Part shown: positions 4,689-5,517 of the stretch, piece after piece
How positions within the stretch are numbered: position 1 is the stretch's first letter
Layout: each line of letters starts with the position of its first letter
IMG/VR virus record: IMGVR_UViG_3300047157_000166
Coordinates: 1-39,078 of that record
Strand: one strand, 5' to 3'
Length of the DNA: 39,078 nt
Origin: a virus
Translations under genes and position numbers: made by a program
Notes under the pieces: model-generated
Seen by the model: only the letters and a program-made list of their open reading frames with translations
What the model was told of the DNA's origin: nothing
Database searches by the model: none

Positions 4689-5011
4689 TGCCGAAACTGA
4701 GTAATGCAGCGTTGCTGGCGCAGCGTCAGGGCAAGGCGGTTGACGCGTTGTTGGCTAAAGCCCGGCGGATCGTGCGAGAAATCCGGGTAGCGGAATCTCG
4801 TGGCGAGGAGCGACTGGGCAACCTGTTGGACTTGGCTGGCAAGTTCTCGCCCCTGAACGCGTCTGACGACGCGATGGAGGAATTCTGGGGGCTGGTCCAG
4901 CTGGGTCAGCAGCAGTTGGAAGCACTGTGCTCTACGGAGCGGGTGCGTGTGAGTGAGGAAGGCGCGGAGGCGTTGGACTCAAAGTCCCTCGGACAGGGGG
5001 CAGTGTTGTAG
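4688..5011 (+). CDS. Hypothetical 107-aa helical protein
   Basis: Coupled by TAATG to the preceding gene. Long helical stretches dominate (LLAQRQGKAVDALLAKAR, RIVREIRVAESRGEERLG, then EEFWGLVQLGQQQLEAL), with a low-complexity tail. No domain recognised. It is the last protein gene before the tmRNA, which begins within about ten bases of its stop; the tmRNA may therefore be co-transcribed with it. Confidence 0.6.
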   Translation: MPKLSNAALLAQRQGKAVDALLAKARRIVREIRVAESRGEERLGNLLDLAGKFSPLNASDDAMEEFWGLVQLGQQQLEALCSTERVRVSEEGAEALDSKSLGQGAVL

Positions 5012-5165
5012 GCAGGTGTCCCGGCGGCCTTAATCGTCGGGTGGTGGATGGTCGCCGAGGCGCCCCTCATCTGGCCGGGCAGATGTAAAACAACCCGGCA
5101 CTAATTCGTTGAAGCATCACGACGAGCAAGGGCGGACGCGGGTTCGACTCCCGCCGCCTCAACCA

Positions 5166-5190
5166 AATGCGCATGAGGTGTGCATCTGAT
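5166..5190 (+). other. tmRNA intervening segment
   Basis: These 25 bases join the CCA end of the acceptor piece to the 5' end of the coding piece. ATGCGCA and TGTGCAT near its two sides pair with one G-U, closing a short hairpin on top of the acceptor stem. In known permuted tmRNAs this segment is removed by tRNA-type end processing. Confidence 0.7.
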
Positions 5191-5278
5191 TGGGGCGTAA
5201 TGGTTTCGACGTTCGAGTGTAAGTGGTGTGGAGAATCGGTGAGGCAGGGCTACCGTAAACGCCAGCAAAACTATAGAT

Positions 5279-5311
5279 GCCAATCAAGACATCTACGCTA
5301 TCGCAGCTTAA
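5279..5311 (+). other. tmRNA tag reading frame
   Basis: The resume codon GCC is followed by codons for NQDIYAIAA and TAA. The tag ANQDIYAIAA has the same length and end pattern as the Escherichia coli tag ANDENYALAA. Bases just upstream (AUAG at positions -6 to -3 of the resume codon) match the conserved context that sets the tmRNA frame. Confidence 0.85.
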
Positions 5312-5373
5312 GTGATAGCCGGGGAGGCCACTGCCCCGTCGCCCAAGTGTGGCACCTAATTCAAGGAGAGAAT

Positions 5374-5517
5374 ATGTCAGACACAAGTAAATTGGTAAGT
5401 CAGTACGTTCCGTGCCCGAAGTGCGGGCAGTCGGTTCGCTCTGAGGCTAGGCTCAAGAACCACATGGTTCGGTGTTTGGGGTGGCAAGTGGCGGAAGAAG
5501 CGTTCCGCCTAGCCTAG
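5374..5517 (+). CDS. Small zinc-finger-like protein (47 aa)
   Basis: Start at ATG 5374 with AAGGAGAG upstream; the longer frame from 5167 runs back through the tmRNA and is rejected. CPKCGQSVRSEARLKNHMVRC gives a CxxC ... HxxxC arrangement (Cys17, Cys20, His33, Cys37 approximately) typical of a C2HC zinc finger. It is probably nucleic-acid-binding. It lies directly behind the tmRNA coding piece, about 20 bases downstream, and may share its transcript. Confidence 0.6.
   Translation: MSDTSKLVSQYVPCPKCGQSVRSEARLKNHMVRCLGWQVAEEAFRLA

Follow-up and report, generated by a model that had tools for sequence, protein, structure and literature searches.

The plus strand of a 39,078-base virus record, analysed here at its full length (the window), carries a complete permuted tmRNA gene 5 kb inside the 39-kb contig, with the acceptor half preceding the coding half and with a seven-pair acceptor stem, a T-arm and CCA. 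The tmRNA_permuted model (RF04321) matches positions 5104-5311 with 106.8 bits (gathering threshold 47, E 4.6e-20) over model positions 1-213 of 213; the beta_tmRNA model (RF01850) matches 5063-5363 over its full length with 94.4 bits (gathering threshold 84); and ARAGORN calls tmRNA* at 5073-5402 with the tag ANQDIYAIAA. The tag frame has a resume codon in an AUAG context (ATAGAT-GCC), a stop codon and a small hydrophobic C-terminus (ANQDIYAIAA*). An earlier note, made by reading the letters of this DNA, had proposed a complete two-piece tmRNA with its own tag and suggested ARAGORN as a check: both covariance models score the whole gene, ARAGORN returns the permuted form with the same tag, and the details that the note listed (the TGGGGCG/CGCCTCA stem, the T-arm, CCA, TTTCGACG, PK1, ATAG and the tag) are all present, which confirms the observation. 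The start at 5022 given in that note lies upstream of the model coverage, but positions 5020-5101, with a hairpin and a pk4-like pseudoknot, are conserved in a relative (L002, below) and may belong to the gene. The features are as follows.

5020-5041, plus strand: hairpin CCCGGCG/CGTCGGG, upstream of the acceptor domain, in a region conserved with L002
5068-5099, plus strand: pk4-like H-type pseudoknot; S1 CATCTG 5068-5073/CAGATG 5080-5085, S2 GCCGGG 5074-5079/CCCGGC 5094-5099
5104-5165, plus strand: core of the acceptor piece (P2 3' strand, T-arm, acceptor 3' strand, CCA), from RF04321, duplex prediction and helix coordinates
5104-5107 and 5115-5120, plus strand: P2 3' strand, ATTC and CATCAC
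5138-5154, plus strand: T-arm GCGGG-TTCGACT-CCCGC, from RF04321 and helix coordinates
5155-5161, plus strand: acceptor 3' strand CGCCTCA; T70 pairs with G3
5162, plus strand: discriminator A (A73)
5163-5165, plus strand: encoded CCA
5166-5190, plus strand: spacer (intervening sequence) of 25 nt with a hairpin of 8 bp; its removal is expected
5191-5356, plus strand: coding piece, from RF04321/RF01850; 5' end as expected from RNase P, 3' end approximate, placed from the end of PK2
5191-5197, plus strand: acceptor 5' strand TGGGGCG (U1-A72, G3-U70)
Between the acceptor 5' strand and PK1, plus strand: TTTCGACG
5237-5255, plus strand: PK1, with stem S1 CGGT 5237-5240/ACCG 5252-5255, from helix coordinates
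5274-5279 and 5290-5295, plus strand: resume-codon hairpin TAGATG/CATCTA with a 10-nt loop, helix-m-like, from the covariation test
5279-5311, plus strand: tag frame GCC AAT CAA GAC ATC TAC GCT ATC GCA GCT TAA, ANQDIYAIAA*, stop TAA at 5309-5311
5320-5353, plus strand: PK2; S1 CGGGG/CCCCG 5320-5324/5334-5338, S2 GCCAC/GTGGC 5327-5331/5349-5353, from helix coordinates
5374-5517, plus strand: C2HC zinc-finger ORF of 47 aa (CPKCGQSVRS...H...C), directly downstream of the tmRNA

Phage setting and syntenic relatives

The window has family matches to a DnaB-like helicase, a ribonucleotide reductase (RNR) whose closest cultivated relatives are annotated as B12-dependent, a NinG-like nuclease and a Sak-like annealing protein, and to the structural families of terminase, portal, scaffold, major head and tail proteins. 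The closest proteins of cultivated phages are distant, and no host was assigned because the first 25 kb of the window has no DNA match to cultivated phages. The RF01850 match was considered as a sign of a betaproteobacterial host and rejected, as phages of Xanthomonas and Acinetobacter score above its threshold too. Tyrosine integrase (PF00589), resolvase (PF00239) and SmpB were not found in the window. The tmRNA gene is flanked by an ORF ending at 5011 and by the zinc-finger ORF from 5374, with the helicase further downstream; a scan for promoters and terminators found nothing above chance, and no sigma-70-like promoter near the tmRNA.

The helicase and RNR served as protein queries to collect relatives, contigs of the same phage group, and a pattern search added others. 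Six contigs, namely the window, L002 (also L011 and L040), L003 (also L032), L012, L051 and L070, have the tmRNA followed by the zinc-finger ORF, the helicase and the RNR, the tmRNA lying between early small ORFs and helicase/RNR. The tmRNAs of L003, L012, L051 and L070 are nearly identical, so that the lineage offers about three distinct types. The gene is not a chance resemblance, since it occupies the same position, and its stems are compensated, in relatives obtained by the protein search. Two further contigs, L004 and L007, span the region with neither tmRNA nor zinc-finger ORF; the tmRNA is therefore accessory although its position is conserved. The zinc-finger ORF, whose Pfam zinc-finger matches fall below the cut-off, is present in all six tmRNA-bearing contigs, as if the two formed a cassette. 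These close phages with and without a tmRNA, with differing tags and compensated stems, make up a natural comparison set for asking why phages bear a ribosome-rescue RNA.

Structure and covariation of the two halves

The acceptor stems of the three types (UGGGGCG/CGCCUCA, GGGCCCG/CGGGUCC and GGGGAGG/CCUCUCC) each pair fully, and the alanine identity elements G3-U70 and A73 are kept in the window, L002 and L003, the latter two of which came from the protein search and not from DNA patterns. Among 29 distinct permuted acceptor/T-arm sequences, many of them from loci found with DNA patterns that preset positions 66, 70, 71 and 73, the window alone has U1-A72; this pair, together with a tag ending in AIAA instead of ALAA, makes weaker charging and degradation possible. 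Stem S1 of PK1 reads AGGT/GCCT in L002 and CTGG/CCAG in L003, and the PK2 stems of L003 read CGGGG/CCCTG and GCCAGC/GCTGGC; as judged from this alignment, the changes in PK1 and PK2 among the relatives are compensated. PK2 was also considered as a second copy of pk4, an idea dropped because its CCCAA loop resembles, by eye, PK2 of other permuted tmRNAs.

P2 of the window does not stand out from shuffled sequences in pairing energy, and so rests on homology. In L003 (4360-4385; also L012, L051 and L070), a hairpin GAGCC-TTCG-GGCTC can form within the acceptor-piece strand of P2, in competition with the pairing of this strand to the coding piece. The spacer is expected to be gone from the mature RNA, by analogy with known permuted tmRNAs; its hairpin has 8-10 pairs in every type, across all six tmRNA contigs, in sequences that are unrelated to each other.

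The mature RNA may or may not include the hairpin that lies upstream of the acceptor domain. In L002 this hairpin reads, by eye, CCCGGCAG/CTGTCGGG, one G-C to A-U change (a comparison of two sequences only, and weak). The pk4-like pseudoknot that follows has perfect helices of 6+6 pairs, a score reached by 1 of 1000 dinucleotide shuffles; 2 of 1697 plus-strand stretches also reach it, and these two are expected to come from the element itself. It is also present in L002; no clear counterpart was found in the L003-type sequences. By eye, its topology, its loop and its flanking UAAA...ACUAA are those of pk4 in one-piece tmRNA. The two-piece tmRNA of Caulobacter retains a single helix of pk4 (PMC1168896). 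A DNA pattern for the junction of pk4 and P2 was set aside, having found the known relatives and chance matches without a tmRNA. The stretches ACTAATTCG (5100-5108), at the start of the acceptor core, and ACCTAATTC (5354-5362), at the end of the coding piece, each directly follow a pseudoknot ending in GGC, and are possibly the relic of a tandem duplication.

The resume-codon hairpin was aligned across nine phage and bacterial sequences, in which 92.6% of cells are paired (a figure biased upwards, as the nine were chosen for a visible hairpin, the two-sided changes being less affected); its covariation score is 0.491, a value that none of 500 shuffles reaches (their mean is 0.188), and the signal collapses in slid controls. 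The comparable hairpin of E. coli, helix m, was predicted by energy calculation only (PMC1168896), and a resume-codon hairpin now has covariation support. The tags differ among close relatives (ANQDIYAIAA, ANDDNYAIAA and ANDSEYALAA) within a constant layout, A-N-...-Y-A-[IL]-A-A, and two of the alanine codons differ synonymously between the window and L002. The isoleucine of the window tag, where L002 has asparagine, is coupled to a base change in the other arm by the pairing of the resume hairpin (UAGAUG/CAUCUA versus UAGUUG/CAACUA).

Proposed function and alternatives

The window gene is probably a functional phage-encoded two-piece tmRNA that rescues stalled ribosomes with the AlaRS, SmpB, EF-Tu and ClpXP of its host, because the Rfam models and ARAGORN agree, the place of the gene is conserved, its stems are compensated, the resume hairpin covaries, the spacer hairpin is kept and the tag retains its layout. 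Against this reading stand the accessory nature of the gene, U1-A72, the AIAA end, the failure to find a sigma-70-like promoter nearby, and a lineage of only about three distinct sequences. The RNA would be transcribed within an early phage transcript, and the precursor would fold across the 25-nt spacer hairpin, as the sequence supports; host RNase P and 3' processing would then release the acceptor piece, with CCA at its end, and the coding piece, which would begin with TGGGGCG; the acceptor stem and P2 would keep them joined. Host AlaRS would charge the acceptor piece by way of G3-U70 and A73, both of which are in place, and host SmpB and EF-Tu would bring the charged tmRNA to stalled ribosomes. 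Translation would resume at GCC (5279) in the frame described above, append (A)ANQDIYAIAA and stop at UAA, after which the ribosome would be recycled and the tagged fragment passed to ClpXP-type proteases. The likely benefit, and the least certain step, would be to keep ribosomes available when mRNA breakdown during infection yields non-stop complexes.

An RNA that titrates SmpB, AlaRS or ribosomes, and so damps or retunes trans-translation in the host, has a precedent in mycobacteriophage DS6A, whose tag-less tmRNA is thought to act in this way, a similar RNA being able to inhibit host tmRNA (PMC4131195); the window phage, in which SmpB was not detected, must share that of its host. DS6A, like the window phage, bears a tmRNA, but only as a tRNA-like domain with no tag frame, whereas the window gene is complete with a tag frame. 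A decoy would need none of the tag, stop codon, PK1, PK2 and resume hairpin, all of which are preserved and covary here, and titration is considered unlikely. The same low probability is given to selective tagging, by which a phage tag unlike that of the host would mark particular host or phage proteins for degradation, or escape recognition by adaptors. The differences between the three tags of close relatives are consistent with this, and selective degradation of host proteins has been proposed for phage Melnitz (PMC9004378), but the layout of the tag is close to that of an ordinary bacterial tag, and the change between isoleucine and asparagine is also explained by the pairing of the resume hairpin.

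The gene could also be functionless cargo, taken from a host ssrA that served as an integration site: integrative phages such as SopEPhi and SEN8 have stretches that match the T-arm/CCA segment and are presumably ssrA attachment sites, and the gene is missing from some relatives. Both halves are complete, however, in an early region far from the contig ends and without a detected tyrosine integrase or resolvase, and the gene is syntenic and covarying in relatives, so that such a remnant is very improbable. The narrower possibility of an ssrA attachment-site fragment (the 3' part only, at the end of an element with an integrase) was rejected, as the earlier note had argued, since the gene is complete and internal and PF00589 and PF00239 are absent. 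The window is a metagenomic virus contig, in which a host tmRNA could have been joined to phage DNA by misassembly, but the arrangement recurs, in diverged sequence, on independent contigs of other metagenomes; these syntenic relatives refute a chimera, to which virtually no probability is assigned.

Kinship with other permuted tmRNAs

Two-piece tmRNAs are already known in phages, and the window is a clear further case with a few unusual structural details: the pk4-like pseudoknot, the resume hairpin, the covarying spacer hairpin, U1-A72 and the co-occurring zinc-finger ORF are what is less ordinary. Among 18,146 phage genomes, 402 had a tmRNA, representing 133 unique structures of which 53 were two-piece, mostly aquatic (PMC9004378), and in a tmRNA database the permuted sequences total 11,946 and the unique bacteriophage sequences 79 (PMC11915505). 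Here, complete permuted tmRNAs were found in five cultivated phages whose records lack the annotation (L202-L206: Alcaligenes, Tunturiibacter, two Xanthomonas and Acinetobacter), and one pattern found more than 40 IMG/VR contigs with a permuted tmRNA; Alcaligenes phage QDWS595 is one of the cultivated phages with such a gene. The earlier note thus overstated the rarity of such a gene on a phage.

In a tree of 58 permuted tmRNAs, the window and L002 join a group of phage sequences (L022, L023, L030, L054, L057 and L073) with support of 100, the L022 group being the nearest sampled relative of the window tmRNA at 61-63% identity. Both lie outside the sampled bacterial clades, including Burkholderiales, in a tree with weak deep nodes, and the L003-type sequences are placed elsewhere. 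The L022 group (tag ANDDSYYGDYALAA), Acinetobacter phage BUCT628 and Xanthomonas phage XacN1 resemble the window in having a complete permuted tmRNA, and the L022 group also has the resume hairpin. These phages are unrelated to the window, with no similarity of early genes, and their tags are longer; the pk4-like pseudoknot was not seen in L022.

The permuted tmRNA of Burkholderiales (RF01850; Advenella, Oligella, Brackiella and Taylorella) shares the gene order, T-arm, G3-U70, PK1, PK2 and a 10-codon tag ending in AA with that of the window, but its acceptor pieces have promoter-like TATA boxes instead of a pk4-like pseudoknot, its genes end in intrinsic terminators, and no Burkholderiales sequence is among the nearest to the window in the tree. 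Methylophilales phage Melnitz and related marine phages (PMC9004378) likewise have a complete permuted ssrA among early genes, with no integrase and with host SmpB presumed. The tmRNA of Melnitz is of an alphaproteobacterial/SAR11-like type, and a glutamine riboswitch is predicted for it (PMC9004378), whereas the window, a different small phage, scores best with the betaproteobacterial model and has the pk4-like pseudoknot. As a tentative and rather doubtful proposal, phage-adapted lineages of two-piece tmRNA might move among phages regardless of the form in the host, the full pk4 might record an independent or early step of permutation, and the zinc-finger protein might be a dedicated partner.

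L139 (titled Stenotrophomonas chelatiphaga) and L174 have a permuted tmRNA plus a standard one-piece tmRNA elsewhere in the genome, the few neighbouring genes with Pfam matches not looking phage-like. Permuted tmRNAs on phage contigs of 235 kb and 332 kb (L019, 613-945, and L021, 3073-3405) have the tag ANSDSFRLVA, without the usual AA end. In Tunturiibacter phage Tunturi_4 (L203, 1120-1972), the predicted tag of the permuted tmRNA is unusually long, at more than 30 residues, and the gene adjoins one annotated as an RF-1 domain release factor, possibly a second ribosome-rescue gene.
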